A stretch of 23,980 nt of DNA, from IMG/VR virus record IMGVR_UViG_3300042695_002125, positions 1-23,980 of that record, one strand, 5' to 3'. Positions 2 to 23,771 of the stretch are shown piece after piece. The first letter of the stretch is position 1; every line of letters starts with the position of its first letter. Under the pieces are notes generated by a model that searched no databases, was not told where the DNA came from, and saw only the letters and a list, made by a program, of their open reading frames with translations. The stretch is from a virus. The position numbers and the translations under genes are program-made.

Positions 2-541
2 ATGAGAAAGACTAAAGGCTACTCACTGTGTTCAGGCGCCTTAACGTTTGTGGTGTCCCTTCTTCTCGCCTCTTTCGGGGCACAAGTCGAGGCTGAGCCA
101 AGTAGGCTTTTTGGCGTTCAATTGTCCGAGAACTATGAAGTTTACGATATTGACCCAACCACAGTTGTGGAGGACGGTTATGGTTTAGACCCGTTTTATA
201 GGGTTGATGTGGTCCCACCCGAACAAAATCCGGGTTTTGAGTATTATACCATTACATTTGATAGCAGAAGAAAGAAGGTTGAGGAGGTTGAGGCTGAGCA
301 TCCGTTCGGAGACGAGCAGTCCTGCAGAGAAGCGGCCGATGATCTGAGTAAAGTTTTGATACCGAAGTTCGAGAAGGAGCCTCAAAAATGGGATGGGGTG
401 AATGGTCAATATCGGCAGTACGAATACAACTACATTCATGATACATGGGCAGGATCGGTTCGGTGCATAACTTTCAGTGGAATCGACACGTGGCTTTACA
501 TTAGCTGTCACATCCCGGAAGGTAGTATGGCTGCTTCCTGA
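2..541 (+). CDS. Secreted hypothetical protein, 3' end replaced by IS sequence
   Basis: I do not recognise the family. The first ~31 residues form a signal peptide: a basic start (MRKTKGY), a hydrophobic core (LTFVVSLLLASFGA) and a likely cleavage after VEA, so the product is probably exported to the periplasm. The mature part is acidic and aromatic, with two cysteines, near residues 103 and 150, that could form a disulfide. Base composition is visibly lower in GC than the prophage. The reading frame runs into the left end of the insertion sequence at 505, so the last ~12 residues (CHIPEGSMAAS) come from the IS terminal repeat and are not native. The ATG at position 2 is at the window edge, so the true start could lie further upstream. 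The gene is probably inactivated or C-terminally altered. Confidence 0.6.
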   Translation: MRKTKGYSLCSGALTFVVSLLLASFGAQVEAEPSRLFGVQLSENYEVYDIDPTTVVEDGYGLDPFYRVDVVPPEQNPGFEYYTITFDSRRKKVEEVEAEHPFGDEQSCREAADDLSKVLIPKFEKEPQKWDGVNGQYRQYEYNYIHDTWAGSVRCITFSGIDTWLYISCHIPEGSMAAS

Positions 542-1472
542 ACAACTGCGGCTTGAGTTTCTGCCAGTCTTTCATCGCCTGCAAGGGCGACTTGCTGCCC
601 AGGGCTGATTGTGGGAGCTGCTGGTTGTAGAGCCAGACATAGCGGTTCAGCGTGGTTTCCAGCTCCTCCCCGGACCGGAAGTGGTGGCCTTGCAGCACCT
701 CCTCGATCCGACCGTTGAAGCGTTCGACCATGCCATTGGTTTGAGGGGACTTCGGCGGGGTCAGGCGATGCTCGATACCAAGTTCGGTGCAGAGCTTGTC
801 GAACTCGTGCTCGCCGGTTGCCGCACGCCTGCGCAGGCCAAACAGGCGATCAGTGAACTCCTTCCCGTTATCGGTCAGAATGGTCCGGATCCGGATCGGG
901 CAGGCCCTCTCCAGGTCCCTCAGGAACCGCCGCGCATTGGCCGCCGTCTTTGCCTTGAAGATGCGGATGAAGACCCAGCGGGTCGCGCGGTCGATGGCGA
1001 CGAACAGATAACGCCGTGAGGTTTCATCAGCCATTTGAGGCAGATACTTCACGTCGATGTGGAGATAACCGGGCTCGTAAGCCTTGAAGCCGCTGTGTTT
1101 CGGCCGCCCCGCCCTAGCCTGAAGGTCACGCAAGTTGCCGACCCCATGCCGACGCAGGCAGCGGTCCAGACCCGAGCGCGAGACATGCGGGTTCAGGAAC
1201 TCGCGCACCACCGCCAGCAGGTCATCGAGCGAGACCAGCAGCGTCTTTCGCAGCGCTACCGCCACGGCCTCCTGCGCAGGCGTCAGAGTCGTCTGCAGGC
1301 GGTGGGGTGTATGGCTGCGATCCTCGACGGTGTCGCGCTTGCGCCATTTGTAGATCGTCTGCGGCGTCACCCCGAAGCGCTCGGCCAGCACCGTGCCGAC
1401 CTCGTCGCTCTCCTGGATCGCCGCCCGCACCTTGGGCGTCGTCGTCGCTTGCTTGTGAAGATGGATCAGCAT
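501..1472 (-). CDS. IS481-family transposase
   Basis: A 323-residue DDE transposase that would bind the terminal repeats and catalyse cut/copy and strand transfer. The N-terminal ~60 residues hold a helix-turn-helix (AERFGVTPQTIYKWRKRD, about 30-47). The rve integrase core follows, with candidate catalytic residues D140 (YLHIDVKYLP), D201 (TILTDNGKEF) and E250 (QTNGMVERFNG). The spacing between the last two is longer than the usual 35 residues because of an Arg/Ala-rich insert (RLFGLRRRAATGEHEF). The length is normal and there is no frameshift, so it is probably functional. The stop codon (501-503) lies just outside the left terminal repeat, so termination is provided by the target DNA. Confidence 0.93.
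   Translation of the reverse strand: MLIHLHKQATTTPKVRAAIQESDEVGTVLAERFGVTPQTIYKWRKRDTVEDRSHTPHRLQTTLTPAQEAVAVALRKTLLVSLDDLLAVVREFLNPHVSRSGLDRCLRRHGVGNLRDLQARAGRPKHSGFKAYEPGYLHIDVKYLPQMADETSRRYLFVAIDRATRWVFIRIFKAKTAANARRFLRDLERACPIRIRTILTDNGKEFTDRLFGLRRRAATGEHEFDKLCTELGIEHRLTPPKSPQTNGMVERFNGRIEEVLQGHHFRSGEELETTLNRYVWLYNQQLPQSALGSKSPLQAMKDWQKLKPQLFRKQPYYLPGCDS
505..519 (+). repeat. IS481-type left terminal inverted repeat
   Basis: CTGTCACATCCCGGA matches the right-end repeat at 12 of 15 positions; only the central CAC/TTG triplet differs. It also encodes the last residues of the transposase. Confidence 0.8.
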
Positions 1473-3034: not shown

Positions 3035-5485
3035 TCACAGCGCATGGCCACGCCGCCGACCATCGGCCACGCTGGCTTTCGCCAGACGCGCGATCTCCGG
3101 GATCGCCGCGCGCAGCCTGGCATCGATCTGTTCAGCCACACCCGCCTGCGCGCCGCGGGCATCAATGCTGATCGACACACCGCCTGCGCCACCCCCGCCC
3201 ATGCCACCCGCAACCTCGCGCCGCGACAGCACACGTTCGCCCCGTTGCAGGATCGCAGGCACCTCGTCAGGACGAAGCCCCGCCCAGCCGCCGGAATGCA
3301 TCCGGGGCGCACCCGCAAAGGCCAGCGCGGGCACCATCCGGCCGGGACCGGGCGCACCGACCATCCCGCCCGCATGCTTCACCGGGGCGAAGATCCCGCC
3401 CAGCCCTTTTGAGAGCCAGTCGGCCAGGGGGCCCAGCACGGAGTTCTTGAACGCCAGCGTCGCGAGATCGGCCAGGATCGAGGAGATCAGCGACTTGAAG
3501 TCGAACTTGCCGGTGGTGACAAACTTCCGGAAGGCGCTCTCGGCCGATGTAAAGGCCGAGACCAGCGTCTCGCCCAGCCCCTTGCCCCAATCCATCGCTC
3601 CCCTGGCGTAGTCCGCCAGGGACTGGGTGACCTGCGCCCAGCCCGCCGCCGCCTCTTCGGCTGCGGTCTTCGCCGCAGCCCCGGCACCACCCGCCGCGCG
3701 GCCAGCCTCGTCAAAGCTCTCGCCAAGGGCGTCGGCCGTATCCGTGGCACGGTCCAGCGCAGCTTCGCCCTCGTCCCCAGCACCGTTCACGGCATCCTTC
3801 AGCGCCTGCCAACTGGCAAGCGGTCGACCGGCGGCATCGGCCAGCATGCCTGCCGCCTCGCGGTATCCCGCAGCCGTGGCCCGGGCGTCGTCCGCCATGA
3901 CACCGAGGCCGAGATCTGGCGCGGTGAGGTAGGTGCTTGCGAGGGCGTTCGAGAAGGCCTCGGCCGCAGCCGTGCCTGCAGCCGTTGCCGCCCCCTCGAA
4001 CGGGTTGCCGATCCGCGCCAGCTCAACTGGATCGAGCGTGCCGATCCGCACCCCACCTTCGCCTGTCGCCCATTCGGGCAGGAGCGCCAACGCCGCGTTC
4101 AAGCCGTTGATGAAGTTGTTGATGCGCGTGACGACGCCGTTCAGCATCGCCTCGACGCCGGAGATCAGACCGTTCGCCGCCTGGAAGGCAAAGTCGCCGA
4201 TGGCACCGGGCAGACTGCCCCAGATCGCCACGGCCGCATCATAAGCCCCCTGGAAGATGGCGGCGGTCCGGTCGCCAAAGCTGACCACGCTCGCGATGGT
4301 GCCTTCCAGCGCTGACAGCCCGGCAGCCTTCAGGTCCTCCCAGCCAGCGGTCATGGTGGCAAAGGCGGCGTCGAGCGCGAGGCCGATGCGCGACCACACT
4401 TCCGATGCCAGATCGGCCAGCAGGCGGAACGCTTCACCCACGCCGCCAACCCGGGCCACCAGCTGCGAGACCTGATAGACCAACTCGCCTGCGCCCACGA
4501 TCAGCGCGCCAATGCCGGTCCGGATCAGCGCCCCGCGCATGATGACCAGCGCTGTCGCCAGACCCCGCACCGACAGGGCGGCAGCGGTCAGTCCCACCAC
4601 CCAGCGTCCGGCCAGGAAGGCGGCAAAGGTCGCGGCATAAGTGCCGAGCCGCGCGAGGTTGTCGAAGACGGCAGTGATGGCGCCGCCGATGGGCCCGGTG
4701 CCGCGCGCCATGTCGGCCAGAGCATTCGCCACGGCTTCCAGCGCCGGGGCAACGGCGGCGGTCAGCCGGTTGGTCAGCCCGAGCCAGATCAGGCTCAGCT
4801 TGGCGATGGCATCGCCGGTGCGTTCGATCTGGGCGGCATCGGCAGCACTGACCGCCACCCCGAAGTCGCGCACATCCTGCGCCGCCTCGCGCAGGGTTGC
4901 GGGATCAATCCGCAGGAAGGCCAGCGCCGCCTTGTCGCCGAAGAGGTCAGAGGCGACAGCCGCGCGTTCGGCTTCCGGCACAAACCGGTTCAGGGCGTCC
5001 TGAATGGCGACGATGCGCTGATCAAGCGGCAAAGCCTGCAGTTCCGCCGCAGTCAGGTTCAGCCGTTCCAGCGCCTTCACGGCCGATCCCGATCCACCGG
5101 CGGCTTCCGACAGGCGCGTGGTCAGCTTCTTCGTCGCCTGTTCGATCTCGCCCATCGAGACCCCGGCCAACTCGCCAGCCCATGTCAGCACCTGCAGGCT
5201 TTCGACGGTGGTCCGGAGCGAAGCGGCCATGTCGGCCTGTGCGCCGATGACGTTGAGCCCCGAGCGGACCATCGCCACGCCAGCCGCTGCGGCCGCAACA
5301 GTCACCGCCGCCAGCGCGATCCCGGCCTTGCGCGCAAAGCTGCCGAGCCGGGCGTTGGCCAGTTCCATCTCTGAGGACAGGCGACCAAACCCGCGCGTGC
5401 CAGCCGCTCCGATGCCTTCCAGTTCGGCGCGCACTTGCCGTCCGCCGACCGCGACGAGGCGGACGGAGACCTTCTTCTCAGGCAT
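3035..5485 (-). CDS. Tail tape measure protein
   Basis: 816 residues. It sets the length of the tail tube and is later ejected with the DNA. Visible features: a basic N-terminal segment; a long hydrophobic, Ala-rich stretch at ~54-73 (GIALAAVTVAAAAAGVAMV) plus further hydrophobic segments around residues 270-340; extended Ala-rich helical regions; and a C-terminal Gly-rich segment with RMHSGGWAGLRPDEVPAIL and RGERVLSRREV, a very common tape-measure C-terminal motif. At roughly 1.5 angstrom per residue it would specify a tail of about 120 nm (a rule of thumb, not a measurement). Its start overlaps the stop of the -1 chaperone frame by 8 bases, so it is likely coupled to translation of that frame. 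No frameshift is seen. Confidence 0.92.
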   Translation of the reverse strand: MPEKKVSVRLVAVGGRQVRAELEGIGAAGTRGFGRLSSEMELANARLGSFARKAGIALAAVTVAAAAAGVAMVRSGLNVIGAQADMAASLRTTVESLQVLTWAGELAGVSMGEIEQATKKLTTRLSEAAGGSGSAVKALERLNLTAAELQALPLDQRIVAIQDALNRFVPEAERAAVASDLFGDKAALAFLRIDPATLREAAQDVRDFGVAVSAADAAQIERTGDAIAKLSLIWLGLTNRLTAAVAPALEAVANALADMARGTGPIGGAITAVFDNLARLGTYAATFAAFLAGRWVVGLTAAALSVRGLATALVIMRGALIRTGIGALIVGAGELVYQVSQLVARVGGVGEAFRLLADLASEVWSRIGLALDAAFATMTAGWEDLKAAGLSALEGTIASVVSFGDRTAAIFQGAYDAAVAIWGSLPGAIGDFAFQAANGLISGVEAMLNGVVTRINNFINGLNAALALLPEWATGEGGVRIGTLDPVELARIGNPFEGAATAAGTAAAEAFSNALASTYLTAPDLGLGVMADDARATAAGYREAAGMLADAAGRPLASWQALKDAVNGAGDEGEAALDRATDTADALGESFDEAGRAAGGAGAAAKTAAEEAAAGWAQVTQSLADYARGAMDWGKGLGETLVSAFTSAESAFRKFVTTGKFDFKSLISSILADLATLAFKNSVLGPLADWLSKGLGGIFAPVKHAGGMVGAPGPGRMVPALAFAGAPRMHSGGWAGLRPDEVPAILQRGERVLSRREVAGGMGGGGAGGVSISIDARGAQAGVAEQIDARLRAAIPEIARLAKASVADGRRRGHAL

Positions 5486-5816
5486 GGTTTTCTCCGATCT
5501 GTTCGTTCAGCTTGCGCACCATGACCGCCTCGATCTCTGGCAGCAGTTCGGCGACGATCAGGGTGTCGATGCCTAGCGCTTGGGCCATGGCTAGGGCCGC
5601 ACCCATGTCCCAGCCCAGCACCGCGCCGGGGATCACCCGCACCTGGCCGCCAAGACGACCGACCAGATCCCAGACCTGCCAGCCGTCCAGCGTTTGCGGG
5701 CGGTTCAGTCTTGCGGGGCAGTCGGGGCAGATGCCCCCGCGGCCCTCGCAGGGCGTGCAGGCCGCGCAGTAGCGATCGCCCCCGCCGAAGGACCAGTCGG
5801 CAAGGGCGCGGAGACG
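5478..5816 (-). CDS. -1 frame extension of the tail assembly chaperone (gpGT-like), zinc-ribbon
   Basis: 112 codons plus stop in the -1 frame relative to the chaperone, starting at the slippery site and ending 8 bases inside the tape-measure gene. No ATG, GTG or TTG is present before the GTG codons about half way along, so it is best read as the product of a ribosomal frameshift. The fusion would be about 227 residues. The first part contains WSFGGGDRYC and a cysteine cluster C-x2-C-x2-C-x6-C-x2-C (CAACTPC to CPDC), which could bind zinc. The second part (TLDGWQVWDLVGRLGGQV, then AALAMAQALGIDTLIV and a charged helix) looks like an ordinary folded helical domain. By analogy with lambda gpG/gpGT, the longer form would recruit tail-tube subunits to the tape measure. 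Confidence 0.8.
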   Translation of the reverse strand, partial: RLRALADWSFGGGDRYCAACTPCEGRGGICPDCPARLNRPQTLDGWQVWDLVGRLGGQVRVIPGAVLGWDMGAALAMAQALGIDTLIVAELLPEIEAVMVRKLNEQIGENHA

Positions 5817-6160
5817 TTTTTTTCCGCGTCCAGGATCAGGCCGCGTGCGACATATTTCGTCTGGAACGCCTCGAAGACTGGCCAGATTTCCAGAAGAGCG
5901 TCGATGCCTTCGGGCGTGACGGGCACGACATTGCCCGCGTCATCGCCTACCCCCTCCCAATCCAGCACCGCGCGGCGGGCGACGGCCTTGGCCATGGCCA
6001 GCGCCAGTTCCTCTTGCGAGGCCCCTTCAGGAAGCGTCTCGATAGCAAGGTCCGCGCGGGCGGAGACCATCAGGGCAGTGGTCAGCGGGGCGACATGCAG
6101 GCGAAGGCCGGGGGCGAGGTCCAGCCATTGGGGCGCGGCGGTCAGGTTCAGACGGATCAT
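5705..6160 (-). CDS. Tail assembly chaperone, short (0-frame) form, gpG-like
   Basis: 151 residues, ATG at 6160, only 2 bases after the tail-tube stop. It lies between the tail tube and tape measure genes, where siphophages encode the chaperone that coats the tape measure before tube assembly. The N-terminal ~112 residues look folded (APQWLDLAPGLRLHVAP, IWPVFEAFQTKYVARG). After the A AAA AAC slippery site (residues 113-115, EKN) the 0-frame product becomes a low-complexity Ala/Pro tail (ARPARPARAAGASAP), as expected when the overlapping -1 frame is the one under selection. A longer in-frame start at 6202 would overlap the tail-tube gene and is not favoured. Confidence 0.85.
   Translation of the reverse strand: MIRLNLTAAPQWLDLAPGLRLHVAPLTTALMVSARADLAIETLPEGASQEELALAMAKAVARRAVLDWEGVGDDAGNVVPVTPEGIDALLEIWPVFEAFQTKYVARGLILDAEKNVSAPLPTGPSAGAIATARPARPARAAGASAPTAPQD
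5777..5822 (-). promoter_or_regulatory. Programmed -1 ribosomal frameshift signal
   Basis: On the minus strand the heptamer A AAA AAC (5822-5816) is in the correct phase for the chaperone (codons GAA AAA AAC). It is followed by a 7-nt spacer (5815-5809) and a hairpin with arms CGCCCTTGCCGA (5808-5797) and TCGGCGGGGGCG (5788-5777). The arms pair over 12 consecutive positions, including two G-T wobbles, around an 8-nt loop. Heptamer, spacer length and stem all match the canonical bacterial and phage -1 frameshift design. The signal lets ribosomes enter the frame ending at 5478. Confidence 0.85.
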
Positions 6161-6162
6161 GG

Positions 6163-7101
6163 TCAGTAACTCGCAATGCTGTTGATGAGGGTTGCAGTGC
6201 ACATTCTGCCGGACGTCTCGGCCCGGGCCGCCTGCCAGTCAAAGCTGGCCTGCACGCCCTGCGGCCCGGAGATCTCGATCCGGGGGCGCGGCAGGTAGAC
6301 GGCATGGGCGGTGAACGTGAAGCTTTCGCCCGAGGGCAGCACATAGGCGAAGGTGATCTCGCTGGGATCGCCATTGATCGCTTGGCTCACCAGCGTGCTG
6401 TCGGCGAAGCGGACCTCGATCCGACCGGTCAGTGCGGCCAGTCCAGGATCCGCCCCGTCGATCTTGCCGTCGCTGCGGATGGTCTCGATACGGTCAAGGT
6501 TGTTGGCATAGGTGATCTCGGCTGACACCACATTGCCAAGCGCAATGCCGTCGCGGCTGATCGCACCATTGAAGTGGCCGAAGCGCTGCAACCCCAGGTC
6601 TGCAGGCGTGCCAGCCAGGGTGGTGCCAGCAATCGTCTCACCCTGCGCCACGAGCCGGGCGGTCGCCGTCAGTAACCCTGCGCGCTGCACCTGCCAGCTG
6701 AGCTGATCCAGCATGCAACCGGAATACATCGCAAAGCGCGGCACTTCCGGCATTGCCGTCTCGATCGACATCGAGGGCAAGGCCCAGCTGCCCGAGCGAA
6801 ACTCGTGCGTATATGTCCCAGCGCCCGTGGTGACCGGATTGCCAAAACCCGCCTTCAGCCAGAAGCCGAACGCCTCGGCATCGATCGGCACCATGACATC
6901 GCCGTCCGCCGTCACCGCGTCCTTGATCGGGGCCAGGGGATCGCGGCCGTAGCCCAGAAGTTCGCTGTTCAAAAGCGGCTGTTCCGATCCGAGCGAAGTG
7001 CTGGCGAAGGGCATCTTCGTGAAGCCACCCGCAGGCGGGGTGCCGTATGTGGTCTCGAACGCAAGCGCCATCTGCGCCCGCGCGCCTTGCGCACGTGCCA
7101 T
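6163..7101 (-). CDS. Major tail tube protein
   Basis: 312 residues. It forms the hollow tube through which DNA passes. The sequence is beta-rich with N-terminal ALAFETTYGTPPAGGFTKMPF, an opening shared by many siphophage tail tube proteins, and repeated Gly/Thr beta segments (TTGAGTYTHEFRSGSWALPSMSIE). A C-terminal Ig-like or tube-extension segment may be present (IEISGPQGVQASFDWQA). Its position directly upstream of the frameshifting chaperone and tape measure supports the call. The start at 7101 has only 75 bases between it and the divergent nuclease gene, so the cargo island sits immediately upstream of its leader. Confidence 0.85.
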   Translation of the reverse strand: MARAQGARAQMALAFETTYGTPPAGGFTKMPFASTSLGSEQPLLNSELLGYGRDPLAPIKDAVTADGDVMVPIDAEAFGFWLKAGFGNPVTTGAGTYTHEFRSGSWALPSMSIETAMPEVPRFAMYSGCMLDQLSWQVQRAGLLTATARLVAQGETIAGTTLAGTPADLGLQRFGHFNGAISRDGIALGNVVSAEITYANNLDRIETIRSDGKIDGADPGLAALTGRIEVRFADSTLVSQAINGDPSEITFAYVLPSGESFTFTAHAVYLPRPRIEISGPQGVQASFDWQAARAETSGRMCTATLINSIASY

Positions 7102-7176: not shown

Positions 7177-7617
7177 ATGATTGGAAGGTTTCTCATTCGC
7201 CGCTTCACGCGTCCGTTGCGCCGTGTGGCATTTTTGTTGGTGGCATTCGCGATTGCGGCGACCCTCATCGGCCAGCCCGGCGCGCAAGCGCAACAGGCTG
7301 GCGCGCTTGAGGCGCGGGTCAGCAAGGTTGTCGACGGCGACACCTTCACCTTGAGTGGCGAGTCCCGCCGGATCCGTGTCTGGGGACTCGATGCCCCAGA
7401 GTGGGATCAGAGCGGGGGCTCCACCGCCACCGCCACGCTGAGCAGCCTGATCTCCGGTGAGACCCTCAGATGCAACGTTCTGGACATTGACCGGTACGGG
7501 CGTCTGGTCGGGCAGTGCTTTCTGCCAGACGGGCGCGACATCGCGGCCGAGATGATCCGCTCAGGGGCTGCCACCGAGTATTGCCGGTATTCGAGCGGGT
7601 ACTACGGCACCTGTTGA
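7177..7617 (+). CDS. Secreted thermonuclease (staphylococcal nuclease homologue), phage cargo
   Basis: 146 residues. Residues 1-40 form a long basic-hydrophobic export signal (RRFTRPLRRVAFLLVAFAIAATL, cleavage likely near AQA). The mature part is an SNase domain: VDGDTF (52-57), RVWGLDAPE (67-75) and DRYGRLVG (105-112). These supply the equivalents of the catalytic Arg, Glu and Arg (R67, E75, R109) and the Ca2+-binding Asp residues, so it is probably an active calcium-dependent nuclease in the periplasm or outside. Two cysteines near the end (EYCRYSSGYYGTC) could form a disulfide. It is transcribed against the late operon between tail tube and tail terminator, a moron arrangement. Host benefit or degradation of incoming phage DNA are guesses. 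No strong ribosome site precedes the ATG. Confidence 0.88.
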   Translation: MIGRFLIRRFTRPLRRVAFLLVAFAIAATLIGQPGAQAQQAGALEARVSKVVDGDTFTLSGESRRIRVWGLDAPEWDQSGGSTATATLSSLISGETLRCNVLDIDRYGRLVGQCFLPDGRDIAAEMIRSGAATEYCRYSSGYYGTC

Positions 7618-7662
7618 GCGCAGGCGGTCAAAGGACCCGCCATCGAAAGGGAGTCTTGGGCC

Positions 7663-7881
7663 ATGATCGAAGGTTTCTTCTTCCTGATGTTCGGGCTGGC
7701 CGCCTTTTGTTTCAGCCTGTGGCTCCTGATCCTGTTGCCCGCCGAAATGGCAGAAGCAAGAGGGCGCAGTGCCTTCAACTGGGTCATGGTCAGCCTCTTC
7801 TGCTCGCCCTTTTTCGCAATCTTTCTTCTGTGGTGGCTTGGGGACCATCCTGACCGGGAGCACGAAAGGAACATCGACTGA
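7663..7881 (+). CDS. Small inner-membrane protein, two helices
   Basis: 72 residues, ATG at 7663 with an upstream GAAAGGGAG ribosome site. Two hydrophobic segments, about 5-27 (FFFLMFGLAAFCFSLWLLILL) and 39-60 (NWVMVSLFCSPFFAIFLLWWLG), are joined by an acidic/basic loop (EMAEARGRS). A charged tail HPDREHERNID follows. No family is recognised. It follows the nuclease gene by 45 bases on the same strand and is likely co-transcribed. The pairing suggests a functional unit such as a superinfection-exclusion or immunity-type membrane partner, but nothing in the sequence proves this. Confidence 0.65.
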   Translation: MIEGFFFLMFGLAAFCFSLWLLILLPAEMAEARGRSAFNWVMVSLFCSPFFAIFLLWWLGDHPDREHERNID

Positions 7882-7916
7882 CCGAGGTCTGATTTTGTCA
7901 GGCTGCTATGATGGGG

Positions 7917-8339
7917 TCAGGCCAAGGGGCCGGTCGTGGTGTAGTGCAGGACAACGGTGATCACCGCCGCCTTCAGCGCCGCCGCGCCTTCGATTGGCAT
8001 ATCGACCGAGGCTGGGGCTTCGGGTTCGACCCAGTCGCAGAGACCGCCAAGCGTGCGGTCGGCTTCCAGCGCCGTGCCGATGCTGGCGATCAGGGTGTCG
8101 AAGGCGCTGGCCCGGCCAGCGCCCGCCTGGACGACGACCTCCAACTCGGCGCGGTGTTGGTAATGGTAGCGCAGCGGCGAGAGCGTCACATCCGGCTCGC
8201 CAGGCTGGCCATCGCGCAGGATGATCAGCCCGGCTGCCGGGATGCGCTCGGGCAGCACGTCGTCACGCAGGGTAAGGGCGGCAAGCGGCTGCAGCCGCGC
8301 GTGCAGCGCGGCGAGGACGGATTCTCGGGTTGTTGGCAT
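7917..8339 (-). CDS. Tail terminator-like protein (often misnamed acyl-CoA transferase)
   Basis: 140 residues. It contains ALHARLQPLAALTLRDDVLPERIPAAGLIILRDG and YHYQHRAELEVVVQAG, a pattern typical of small proteins between head-tail joining and tail tube genes in alphaproteobacterial siphoprophages. That position corresponds to the gpU-type tail terminator, which caps the tail tube and joins it to the head. Databases frequently carry a misleading acyl-CoA transferase label for this family, and no CoA-binding motif is visible. Plus-strand cargo genes flank it on both sides, so it is cut off from direct coupling with its neighbours. Confidence 0.7.
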   Translation of the reverse strand: MPTTRESVLAALHARLQPLAALTLRDDVLPERIPAAGLIILRDGQPGEPDVTLSPLRYHYQHRAELEVVVQAGAGRASAFDTLIASIGTALEADRTLGGLCDWVEPEAPASVDMPIEGAAALKAAVITVVLHYTTTGPLA

Positions 8340-8386
8340 GGTTTGCGTGGAAATTCATTTATATCGAGCAGTTTTTTTTCTTCTGA

Positions 8387-8418
8387 TTGACTCCGCCAGA
8401 TAGTCTTGGCGGAATATC
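8387..8418 (+). promoter_or_regulatory. Candidate promoter with palindromic operator for the membrane moron
   Basis: TTGACT (8387-8392) resembles a -35 box. A perfect inverted repeat TCCGCCA-8nt-TGGCGGA (8392-8398 and 8407-8413) follows directly, and GAATAT (8412-8417) could be the -10 box with a slightly long 19-nt spacing. The palindrome thus fills the spacer, as expected for a repressor site. It is not followed by a T-run on either strand, which argues against a terminator. Confidence 0.45.
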
Positions 8419-8437
8419 GCAAAGTTAGGAGGCTGAT

Positions 8438-9124
8438 TTGCTCGATTTGAAAGTACGCAGATCTGTTTGGTGGTTGTCTCTGGCACTGTTCTTCGGCGGC
8501 ATGATCGTTGCGTTCTGGGTTCACGCAAGCGGACTTTCCTTTTGGCTGCAGCGGGTTGATTGGTGGCACACTTTTGGTGCCGTTCTAATCGCAGGAGTGT
8601 CGCTGGGGGTTTTCGTGATTGCTTCCCGAGGTCGCATGAAGGACATGAGAGCTCCGACGCGACTTCTTTGGCTTCTTCCTGCGTTTCCGGTCTGGGTATT
8701 GTTTATGGGCTTGGTACCAGGAGCAACAGAGACAAAGCCGGATCCAGTTAGAGCTACGATGAGACAACTGGGGGTCGCGCTACTGGTTGGTTCCGTCCTA
8801 GCTGCAGTTCTCGCTACGGTCGCCATCTGGCTGGGGCGGAGCAATTTTCAAGCAATCGATTCTACAAGAGAAGTTTCGGATGGTGCAGCGGGTACAAACG
8901 GTGGTTCGCTGCCTTCCACCAAGCCAGAGTCAAAATCCGTAGCCATGAGCTTCGACGACTGCCTGTCGTTGATTCGTCGCACAGCGACAGATCTCGGAGT
9001 TGCTCCGATCAACATCGTCGAAACAGACATTATGCGGATGGTGAGGTTTGTGGCTTCCGACGGGACGGTCTTGGTAACCTGCAGCCGTCCAGACGGGAAA
9101 GCAATAATCACGAAAAGCGATTGA
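8438..9124 (+). CDS. Four-helix membrane protein with soluble C-terminal domain, phage moron
   Basis: 228 residues, unrecognised. The TTG at 8438 is chosen as start because AGGAGG (8427-8432) sits 5 bases before it. Four hydrophobic segments (~10-30, 44-63, 75-94, 111-132) place the first half in the inner membrane. A polar linker (SDGAAGTNGGSLPSTKPES) leads to a ~60-residue soluble domain (MSFDDCLSLIRRTATDLGVAP, then VRFVASDGTVLVTCSRPDG) that resembles a small alpha/beta fold. Base composition is lower in GC than the surrounding virion genes. It lies antisense inside the late operon with its own promoter-like site, so it is probably expressed from the silent prophage, for example for superinfection exclusion (inference only). 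Confidence 0.7.
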   Translation: MLDLKVRRSVWWLSLALFFGGMIVAFWVHASGLSFWLQRVDWWHTFGAVLIAGVSLGVFVIASRGRMKDMRAPTRLLWLLPAFPVWVLFMGLVPGATETKPDPVRATMRQLGVALLVGSVLAAVLATVAIWLGRSNFQAIDSTREVSDGAAGTNGGSLPSTKPESKSVAMSFDDCLSLIRRTATDLGVAPINIVETDIMRMVRFVASDGTVLVTCSRPDGKAIITKSD

Positions 9125-19867: not shown

Positions 19868-21214
19868 TCAGTTGGACCTGTTTGCAATGCTATCCAGCGT
19901 CGATTTCGCCCTTGTCGCCATTTCCCACCGCCGCACAGCGACGTCGCAATAAACCGGGTCCAGTTCCATCGCGAAGCACTGCCGCCCAGCGCGTTCGGCG
20001 GCGACGATCTGGGTGCCGGAGCCGCAGAACGGCTCGTAGATCAGGTCGCCCGGATCCGAGAAAGCGGTCAGCACTGATTCTACAAGCGCCACCGGGAACA
20101 CCGCCGGATGCGATCCCACCGCACCAAGCCCGCCTTTGTGACGCATGATGCGGAACACAGAGTCGGGGATCCGATGGCTCTGGATCGCATTTCCTGTTCC
20201 GGTCTTGGCGTGGACGGTGCCGTCGGCCCCGCGCAGCCCACCGCCGCCGAGGGTTTCGCCCGCGTGCTTGGACGGGACGGTCTTGTGCGGTTTGCGAGGG
20301 CTGCGGTTGAAGTGGAAAATGAACTCGTGCGACGGAGCCAGGCGTCCCTGCCAGTCGCCCGGCAGGCCCGGTCCTTGATCCCAGACATACCAACCAAACC
20401 GCCGCCAGCCAGATTTGCGCATCCATTCGACCCATCCCTCCCAATAGGGTTGCCATTCGCTGTCGCGATGCACGAGGCCGAGGTTGACCAGCAGCTGAGC
20501 GTCCGCTGTGATCGGCGCTGCGGCGAACACGCCCTGCATCAGCGCATCCCAATCGCCGACCTTCTCCTTCGCCGCGCCATAGTCGCGCTGCTGGGCATAG
20601 GGCGGCGAGGTGAACATCAGCGTGGCCTGCTCCCCCTGCATCAGCCTGGCGACGGCGGCTGGATCGGTCGCGTCACCGCAGCAAAGCCGGTGGCGCCCGA
20701 GCCGCCAGATGTCGCCCGGCTTGGTGATTGGTTCGGCAGGCGGGTCAGGGATGGCATCGGCTTCATCGTCGTCGATCACCGTCCTGTCGTCATCGCCCGC
20801 GTGCAGCAGGGCGTCCAGTTCATCCTCCGGAATCCCGATCAGCCCGAGGTCGAAATCGTCGGCCAGCAACGCCTGCAGTTCCTGCAACAGCAAGGCATCG
20901 TCCCAACCGCCCAACTCCGTCAGCTTGTTGTCGGCGATGCGATAGGCCCGGCGCTGCGCTTCGGTCAGATGGCCCAGCACGATGACCGGGGCTTCAGACA
21001 ACCCAAGGTGCGCGGCCGCCAGGATTCGGCCATGGCCTGCGATCAACTCCCCGTCGGCGGCCACCAGCACCGGAACTGTCCAGCCGAACTCGGCCATGCT
21101 GGCGGCGATCTTCGACACCTGATCGGCATCGTGGGTCTTGGCGTTGCGGGCGTATGGTTTCAGGCGGGCGAGGGGCCAATGCTCAATCCGGCCCGGCAGC
21201 AAGGGCGCATTCAT
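19868..21214 (-). CDS. ParB-like domain / DNA methyltransferase fusion, SPPY type
   Basis: 448 residues. Residues ~10-100 form a ParB/sulfiredoxin-like N-terminal domain (GELIAGHGRILAA at 55-67, RRAYRIADNKLTELG at 88-102). A Rossmann methyltransferase domain follows, with catalytic TSPPY (202-206) before the S-adenosylmethionine motif FCGSGT (396-401). This order is that of the beta class, and the SPPY motif is typical of N4-cytosine enzymes, so m4C is the likely product. ATG at 21214 overlaps the stop of the upstream paralogue (ATGA), hence co-translated. There is no restriction partner nearby, so it probably protects phage DNA. The frame continues upstream to 21457 only over the paralogue. 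Confidence 0.9.
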   Translation of the reverse strand: MNAPLLPGRIEHWPLARLKPYARNAKTHDADQVSKIAASMAEFGWTVPVLVAADGELIAGHGRILAAAHLGLSEAPVIVLGHLTEAQRRAYRIADNKLTELGGWDDALLLQELQALLADDFDLGLIGIPEDELDALLHAGDDDRTVIDDDEADAIPDPPAEPITKPGDIWRLGRHRLCCGDATDPAAVARLMQGEQATLMFTSPPYAQQRDYGAAKEKVGDWDALMQGVFAAAPITADAQLLVNLGLVHRDSEWQPYWEGWVEWMRKSGWRRFGWYVWDQGPGLPGDWQGRLAPSHEFIFHFNRSPRKPHKTVPSKHAGETLGGGGLRGADGTVHAKTGTGNAIQSHRIPDSVFRIMRHKGGLGAVGSHPAVFPVALVESVLTAFSDPGDLIYEPFCGSGTQIVAAERAGRQCFAMELDPVYCDVAVRRWEMATRAKSTLDSIANRSN

Positions 21215-22470
21215 GCTGCCAGCCTTTTCGCTTTCAGGTCGGCGAAGGTTTCGCCCGTTTCGGCCAGCAGGGCATTGCCGCCAGCGAACTGCTGCCAGCG
21301 TTCGATGGCGACATCGACATAGGCCGGGTTCAATTCGATCCCGAAACACACCCGCCCGGTGGTTTCCGCCGCTATCAGCGTGGTGCCGGATCCCATGAAG
21401 GGTTCGAATACTGCCTGACCCGGGCTGGAGTTGTTCAGCATCGGGCGGCGCATACATTCCACCGGCTTCTGGGTGCCGTGCACCGTGGCGGCGTCCTGAT
21501 CCTTGCCGGATATGTGCCAGAGGGTGGTTTGCTTGCGGTCACCCGCCCAATGGCCCTTGCCGGTCTTTTTCACGGCATACCAGCAAGGCTCATGCTGCCA
21601 ATGATAATCGCCCCGGCTAAGGACGAGGCGGTCCTTGGCCCAGATGATCTGCGACCTGACGGCGAAACCGGCCGCCACCAGGCTCTCGGCAACGGTCGTG
21701 GCATGCAGCGCACCGTGCCAGACATAGGCCACGTCGCCGGGGAACAGCGCCCAAGCCTCGCGCCAGTCGGCCCGGTCGTCGTTCAGCACCTTGCCGGTGC
21801 GTTTGGTCTTCGCCGCGCCCGCTTGGTTGCGCCAGGAGGGGTCATATTCCACGCCATAGGGCGGGTCGGTGACCATCAGCAGCGGGCGCACATCACCAAG
21901 CAGGCGCGCGACCACATCGGCCGAGGTGCTGTCGCCGCAAATCAACCGGTGCGACCCGAGGTGCCACAGATCACCCGCCACCGACACCGGCGTGACCGGC
22001 GGTTCCGGAATGTCATCCTCGCCCTCGACGGCACCGCCTTCCACCTGATCCGGATCGCGCAGCAGGGCGTCCAGATCCTCCTCGGTGATCCCCAGCAGCG
22101 ACAGGTCGAAATCCTCGGCCAATAGCCCCGCGATTTCGTCGCGCAGCATCGCCTCGTCCCACTCGCCCAGCTCGGTAAGTTTGTTGTCGGCGATCCGGTA
22201 GGCCCGGCGTTCAGCCTCGTCGAGATGGCTGAGCCGAATTACCGGCACGTCCTTCAGCCCCAGCATGATGGCGGCCAACACCCGGCCGTGTCCCGCGATC
22301 AGTTCACCATCGTCGGCCACAAGGCACGGAACGGTCCAGCCGAACTTCGCCATGCTGGCGGCGATCTTGGCGACCTGGTCCGTGCCGTGGATCTTGGCAT
22401 TGCGGGCATAGGGGCGCAGCCGGTCAAGCGGCCAAGTCTCGATCTGGCTCGGTGCGAAGACCAGGTCCAT
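21211..22470 (-). CDS. ParB-like domain / DNA adenine methyltransferase fusion, DPPY type
   Basis: 419 residues. The ParB-like N-terminal domain is close to that of the downstream paralogue (YARNAK, GELIAGHGRVLAA at 55-67, RRAYRIADNKLTELG at 88-102). The methyltransferase domain has DPPY (202-205), HGTQKP (331-336) and FMGSGTT (358-364), a beta-class N6-adenine pattern. It is likely to methylate adenine in a specific sequence on phage DNA and so evade host restriction. The ParB-like part may help in DNA binding. It is the first gene of a two-gene minus-strand unit. GAGAGAG lies about 7 bases upstream of the ATG at 22470. Confidence 0.92.
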   Translation of the reverse strand: MDLVFAPSQIETWPLDRLRPYARNAKIHGTDQVAKIAASMAKFGWTVPCLVADDGELIAGHGRVLAAIMLGLKDVPVIRLSHLDEAERRAYRIADNKLTELGEWDEAMLRDEIAGLLAEDFDLSLLGITEEDLDALLRDPDQVEGGAVEGEDDIPEPPVTPVSVAGDLWHLGSHRLICGDSTSADVVARLLGDVRPLLMVTDPPYGVEYDPSWRNQAGAAKTKRTGKVLNDDRADWREAWALFPGDVAYVWHGALHATTVAESLVAAGFAVRSQIIWAKDRLVLSRGDYHWQHEPCWYAVKKTGKGHWAGDRKQTTLWHISGKDQDAATVHGTQKPVECMRRPMLNNSSPGQAVFEPFMGSGTTLIAAETTGRVCFGIELNPAYVDVAIERWQQFAGGNALLAETGETFADLKAKRLAA

Positions 22471-22847: not shown

Positions 22848-23771
22848 ATGGGTGTCCTTGATCGACTGCTTTCGTCGTCCGACCCGTTTATAAGTGACGG
22901 CGGAATGGAGACGGATCTGATCTTCCACGAAGGTGCCGACTTGCCGCTGTTTGCGTCCTTCGTCCTTCTCGATAGTGCGGAAGGTCGAGAAATGCTGCGG
23001 CGCTATGCTGTCTCCTATCTCGACATGGCCCAAGCGGCCGGGCGCGGCTTTGTGCTCGGGACACCAACTTGGCGGGCCAATGGCGGCTGGGGCGCGAAGC
23101 TAGGGTTGGACGATGCCGGGATCCGGGATGTCAACCGACGTGCTGTGGCATTTGCCCGTGGTCTACGGGACGCCCATCCTTGGCGCGAGCATATCCTGAT
23201 AGAGGGAGTGCTGGGACCGGCAGGCGATGGTTATGCGCCTACGCAACTGCTGAGTCCGACGGAATCGGCCCACCTGCACAACGCCCAGCTGGAGACTTTT
23301 GCTCAGGAAGGAGTGGACATCGCCACGGCCTTCACCATCACCCACCCGGGAGAAGCAATCGGCATGGCCAACCGGGCGCGCGAGCTGGGTTTGCCCTTCG
23401 CACTGTCCTTCACCGTAGAGACCGATGGACGGTTGCCGACCGGACAAGACCTTGAAAGCACGCTCGACGAGGTCGAAACGGCGACCCACGGCTATTGCCG
23501 CTACTATGGGATCAATTGCGCCCACCCTGAGCACTTCAATAATCAGTTGCCATCACGCTGGCTGAATCGCATCGGCGTGATCCGACCAAATGCGTCGCGC
23601 TGCAGCCATGCCGAGCTGGATGAGGCGACTGAACTCGATGATGGTGACCCGGACGAGTTCGGCGCACTTTACGCCGAGATGGCGAAGCGGCTGCCCGGAC
23701 TGCACGTTGTCGGGGGATGCTGCGGCTCCGACATGCGGCATATAAGGGCGGTGATAGCGGCGGGCGTCTGA
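22848..23771 (+). CDS. Homocysteine S-methyltransferase family protein
   Basis: 307 residues, ATG at 22848 with GGGGGGAG upstream. This is a TIM-barrel methyltransferase that moves a methyl group from a donor such as S-methylmethionine or a betaine to homocysteine in the cytosol. The N-terminal SDGGMETDLIFHEG (16-29) is the family's substrate-site entry, INCAHP (222-227) carries the first zinc ligand C224, and VVGGCCGSD (287-295) carries C291 and C292. All three zinc-binding cysteines are therefore present. The exact donor cannot be read from the sequence. It is a host-type gene with its own promoter and probably marks the chromosome flanking the prophage. Confidence 0.9.
   Translation: MGVLDRLLSSSDPFISDGGMETDLIFHEGADLPLFASFVLLDSAEGREMLRRYAVSYLDMAQAAGRGFVLGTPTWRANGGWGAKLGLDDAGIRDVNRRAVAFARGLRDAHPWREHILIEGVLGPAGDGYAPTQLLSPTESAHLHNAQLETFAQEGVDIATAFTITHPGEAIGMANRARELGLPFALSFTVETDGRLPTGQDLESTLDEVETATHGYCRYYGINCAHPEHFNNQLPSRWLNRIGVIRPNASRCSHAELDEATELDDGDPDEFGALYAEMAKRLPGLHVVGGCCGSDMRHIRAVIAAGV

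Follow-up and report, generated by a model that had tools for sequence, protein, structure and literature searches.

The window analysed here is the whole 23,980-nucleotide stretch of IMG/VR virus record IMGVR_UViG_3300042695_002125. Its minus strand carries a tail-assembly chaperone gene whose sequence, read together with that of its relatives, indicates with high confidence programmed −1 ribosomal frameshifting of the lambda G/GT type. The analyses below establish the anatomy of the site, the relation between its two reading frames, the conservation of both and selection on an RNA hairpin just downstream of the slip site. Coordinates of the gene, its signals and its neighbors are collected in Table 1.

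Table 1. Features of the frameshifted chaperone gene and its neighbors (window positions)
Feature	Positions	Strand	Details
Tail tube protein, V-like, upstream neighbor	6163-7101	minus	PF18906, E = 3.7e-56
0-frame tail assembly chaperone, short form, G-like	6160-5705	minus	151 aa; ATG 6160; stop ends at 5705; phrog_313, E = 6e-27
Slippery heptamer A AAA AAC	5822-5816	minus	0-frame codons GAA AAA AAC; phase X XXY YYZ
−1 frame domain, T-like	5816-5478	minus	112 codons + stop, which ends at 5478; DUF7697 match; joined to short-form residues 1-115
Spacer GTCTCCG	5815-5809	minus	7 nt, between heptamer and hairpin
Putative stimulatory hairpin	5808-5777	minus	12 consecutive pairs (2 G-U), 8-nt loop; basis: folding, conservation, recoding test
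Four-cysteine motif C17-x2-C20-x9-C30-x2-C33	5718-5768	minus	Within the −1 frame domain
Tape measure protein, H-like, lambda-type, downstream	3035-5485	minus	PF09718; phrog_8462, E = 3e-192

In the proposed mechanism, the majority of ribosomes would stay in the 0 frame and produce the short form. A minority, paused at GAA AAA AAC by the hairpin, would shift by one base in the 5' direction as both tRNAs re-pair (AAA/AAC to AAA/AAA), and would then read on through the second frame to give a predicted fusion of 227 aa (115 + 112). If lambda is a guide, the tape measure protein would be coated by many copies of the short chaperone, while a few fusions would recruit tail-tube subunits through their extra domain. 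Slippage in the cell, its rate and this tube-recruiting role of the fusion are what we infer.

Read on the minus strand, the site runs GAC GCG GAA AAA AAC GTC TCC G and continues as CGCCCTTGCCGA CTGGTCCT TCGGCGGGGGCG, of which the outer two segments are the hairpin arms and CTGGTCCT is the 8-nt loop. RNA folding of the site returns exactly the 12-pair hairpin (minimum free energy, −28.7 kcal/mol), and a recount confirmed the heptamer phase, spacer length, stem and loop given in the initial annotation. Taken alone, in GC-rich DNA, this hairpin is unremarkable, with a z score of only −1.67 against dinucleotide shuffles. The 3,798 late-gene codons contain only eight in-phase XXXYYYZ heptamers, four of them of the strongly slippery type. 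A chance origin of the site is excluded by its conservation, not by the single sequence.

The 0-frame open reading frame could be extended upstream to an in-frame GTG at 6202, but we take ATG 6160 as the start of the short form because the conserved alignment begins there. The −1 frame opens at 5939 and has no ATG, GTG or TTG between that point and the slip site; its first such codon past the slip is GTG 5642, 58 codons in. The initial annotation had described a 112-codon −1 frame with no start in its first half and products of 151 and about 227 residues, and these predicted sizes stand. Its further statement that standard ORF calling misses the second half entirely was too strong, since a fragment can be called from an internal start, as in the short families DUF7697 and phrog_11212 discussed below. 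In a separate observation, the C terminus of the short form (..TAPQD stop, window positions 5705-5718, and its counterpart in relatives) is kept by way of codons that are rare in the −1 frame (GCA in 88% and AGA in 87%, against backgrounds of 9% and 4%), so that selection may act on this C terminus independently.

The gene order of tail tube, chaperone and tape measure, first proposed from the letters of the sequence, is supported by the matches to PF18906, phrog_313 and PF09718/phrog_8462. The ATG of the tape measure gene overlaps the fusion stop as ATGCCTGA, and the same overlap is present in 122 of 160 relatives.

Elsewhere in the window, three plus-strand ORFs (7177-9124), one nuclease-like (PF00565) and two without a family, are situated among or next to the tail genes of the late operon on the minus strand and look like cargo genes. 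Two adjoining, overlapping minus-strand ORFs (19868-22470) each contain an N6/N4 DNA methylase domain (PF01555), and both also open with what, judged by eye, is a ParB-like part. Near one end of the window is an integrase-core transposase (501-1472, minus strand), and the opposite end has a homocysteine S-methyltransferase (22848-23771, plus strand); this suggests that the contig may extend into DNA of the host.

Close relatives were collected by scanning genomes and viral contigs with peptide patterns that did not include the heptamer, which gave 160 loci with both halves. The heptamer AAAAAAC stands at the same codon position, followed by a second half in the −1 frame, in 154 of these loci (129 of 134 distinct sequences). 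The wider family, located through DUF7697 in bacterial genomes and by DNA pattern, has AAAAAAC, GGGAAAC or AAAAAAA at the site, in phase and each with a hairpin just downstream. Scanning by pattern for GGGAAAC within the same surroundings retrieved 77 viral contigs, and confirmed distinct GGGAAAC sites number 40 overall; the pattern of that scan itself contained the heptamer and part of the stem, but it played no part in finding phage RcKemmy and loci L185, L187 and L197. The two halves were aligned separately, a joint alignment with a natural fusion having misaligned the second halves. An alignment of relatives had been proposed in the initial annotation as a check on the frameshift, and it shows the heptamer and stem kept while the 0-frame tail after the slip varies from 1 to 42 codons. 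Relatives with the second frame preserved but lacking heptamer or stem, or with a start codon of its own in that frame, had been named there as potential refutations; such cases are not the rule, and no conserved start was found. The frames joined outright in a handful of relatives with an A8 run (see below) are a genuine exception, though of another sort than those named there. On sequence grounds, these comparisons leave almost no doubt that the gene uses a programmed −1 frameshift.

The hairpin shows signs of selection beyond its coding content. Mean synonymous entropy is 0.36 bits at hairpin codons, compared with 0.67 bits in the remaining overlap and 0.84 bits at single-coded codons. Within the hairpin, Gly12 is encoded by GGG in 99 of 116 sequences (85%, against a background of 8%), and the Leu5 codons CTC/CTT likewise depart from general usage. 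When hairpin energies were compared with synonymous recodings matched for codon usage (the background being drawn from the same gene family), the mean z score was −2.63 over 169 distinct sequences, with 81% at or below the 5% level, whereas four control segments taken elsewhere in the gene gave +0.13 to +0.34 in the same test. For the hairpin of the window itself, 2.25% of synonymous recodings fold equally well. Hairpin pairs are formed in 95% of cells of the alignment versus 42 to 57% when one arm is slid. Two-sided stem changes (8 cells, 4 pairs) are no commoner than in the slid controls (5 to 13 cells), and the case for the hairpin is therefore made by retained pairing and synonymous recoding. 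The 0-frame overlap could contribute to the frozen third positions; selection on the hairpin itself is favored by the fold test and by those relatives in which the 0 frame stops one codon past the slip. An Rfam search with the site gave no match.

The −1 domain matches DUF7697 (PF24752) over its residues 61-111 (E = 1.4e-28; 99 bits against a curated cutoff of 27), and phrog_11212 also matches its end. Both families are 52 to 55 residues long and are listed without function, and our literature search for DUF7697 found no mention of it. They look like truncated versions of the frameshifted domain, whose true extent is the entire −1 extension of 105 to 120 residues; the two families cover only its end. 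Separately, phrog_680 (98 residues, labeled tape measure protein) weakly matches the −1 domain (E = 9e-5 with locus L005) and may be another truncated T-like family. In an alignment of 70 sequences, cysteines C17, C20 and C33 of the four-cysteine motif never vary, and most of the sequences also have C30; that this C-x2-C ... C-x2-C knuckle might bind zinc is a guess from the motif. The structure model of the −1 domain reaches a mean pLDDT of 87, and its four-cysteine loop is poorly modeled (about 55 at residues 21-30). Among its fold matches, the named viral ones are mainly tape measure chaperone proteins and are weak (E = 0.08 and above), and PDB searches with the domain by sequence and by fold returned nothing significant. 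The short-form model is good from about residue 11 to residue 111, and its tail beyond the slip site is disordered. The short form had no PDB match by sequence or by Foldseek; in a second look, the best PDB match of its model was the HK97 tail assembly chaperone 2ob9, a weak one (Z = 4.6, rmsd 5.4, 93 aligned residues).

An eighth A at the slip site turns the gene into one continuous long ORF in Roseisalinus L003, Chelatococcus L005 and loci L216, L217 and L219, while the usual short-form tail stays open in another frame. The nearest relatives of four of these loci (89 to 93% DNA identity) have seven A residues, and the A8 insertions therefore look independent; L219 has no near relative in our set. 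The fusions span at least five separate lineages. These loci may be broken prophages, or the short form may be made there by slippage. A bolder reading, which we consider rather unlikely, is that the arrangement is inverted in these lineages, the long fusion being encoded directly and the short form arising through an A dropped in transcription or through ribosomal slipping; it is raised because the short-form frame stays open there. Locus L004, from a metagenome-assembled genome (MAG), has Ns at the site near locus position 2830, an altered heptamer (AAAGAAC) and an intact frame, which probably stems from a frameshift-correcting assembly step that may thus have erased a programmed frameshift. 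Errors or mutations seem to account for L029 (A6), L084 (an indel upstream) and L183 (a shortened A run).

The fused A8 versions in a few genomes are also what one would expect had a sequencing error or decaying pseudogene split a single gene, a reading that the conservation of the split refutes and to which we give practically no weight: the same codon is split in 129 distinct relatives, and the fused versions are isolated, with nearest relatives at A7 where measured. The same fusions bear on transcription, in that RNA polymerase could slip within the A7 run, add one A and align the second frame with no ribosomal shift; since the natural A8 genes are in-frame fusions, an extra A in the mRNA would yield nearly the same product. 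This too is very improbable, however, given that many relatives carry GGGAAAC, which lacks a long homopolymer, that a selected downstream hairpin is expected for ribosomes and unneeded for poly-A slippage, and that the described case of polymerase slippage, in tssM, has 11 A residues (PMC4256274).

We regard it as similarly improbable that the second half is a separate gene translated alone from an internal start, as DUF7697 and phrog_11212 imply by beginning near the internal GTG codons at 5642 and 5636, and as a Nostoc phage record implies by annotating the second ORF on its own. In a set of 122 distinct relatives, one has to go 30 to 70 codons beyond the slip to meet the first start codon of the −1 frame, and its position is not conserved; GTG encodes V61 in only 83 of 112 sequences; and the conserved residues of the −1 domain begin directly after the slip site (R1, A4, L5, W8). 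The points that speak against programmed frameshifting itself are the few two-sided stem changes, the frame-fused relatives, the weak fold matches and the report that A_AAA_AAC is less shift-prone than A_AAA_AAG in E. coli, a rate for that species rather than for an alphaproteobacterium (PMC5009743).

Frameshifted tail chaperones are textbook knowledge (PMC5009743) and usual in Rhodobacter phages (PMC8601537), and the lambda G/GT frameshift was described by Levin (1993) and by Xu, Hendrix and Duda (2004), as cited in PMC5009743. The gene in the window resembles Rhodobacter phage RcKemmy genes 15/16 (cluster RcC, MW677517; PMC8601537): both halves are homologous, at about 42% identity, and the RcKemmy second half is in the −1 frame, deposited as a joined CDS, with the same overlap at the tape measure start. 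It differs in that RcKemmy has the heptamer G GGA AAC, a longer first half and different hairpin bases. With lambda G/GT the gene shares the order tube, chaperone and tape measure, an in-phase XXXYYYZ heptamer, a −1 shift late in the first frame, a second frame without its own start, and predicted short and long products; sequence homology of the window protein to lambda G or T was not found. Unlike lambda, whose own heptamer is G GGA AAG, it has A AAA AAC followed by a strong hairpin under selection, and a −1 domain with a four-cysteine motif.

The G/GT type of frameshift was thus already known and the RcKemmy join already annotated, and the window contributes a new member; the additions made here are the comparative proof for the family, an interpretation of DUF7697, the four-cysteine motif and the A8 fusions. 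The family provides a clean and well-conserved example of such a frameshift in alphaproteobacterial prophages and viruses, and it gives DUF7697 and phrog_11212, listed as unknown, a function-level reading. The exchange of heptamers (AAAAAAC, GGGAAAC and AAAAAAA) over a kept hairpin, together with the A8 fusions, offers ready variants for work on the ratio of short to long form in tail assembly. If the inverted reading of the A8 lineages were true, ribosomal frameshifting and polymerase slippage would have been exchanged naturally as ways of making the same protein pair.
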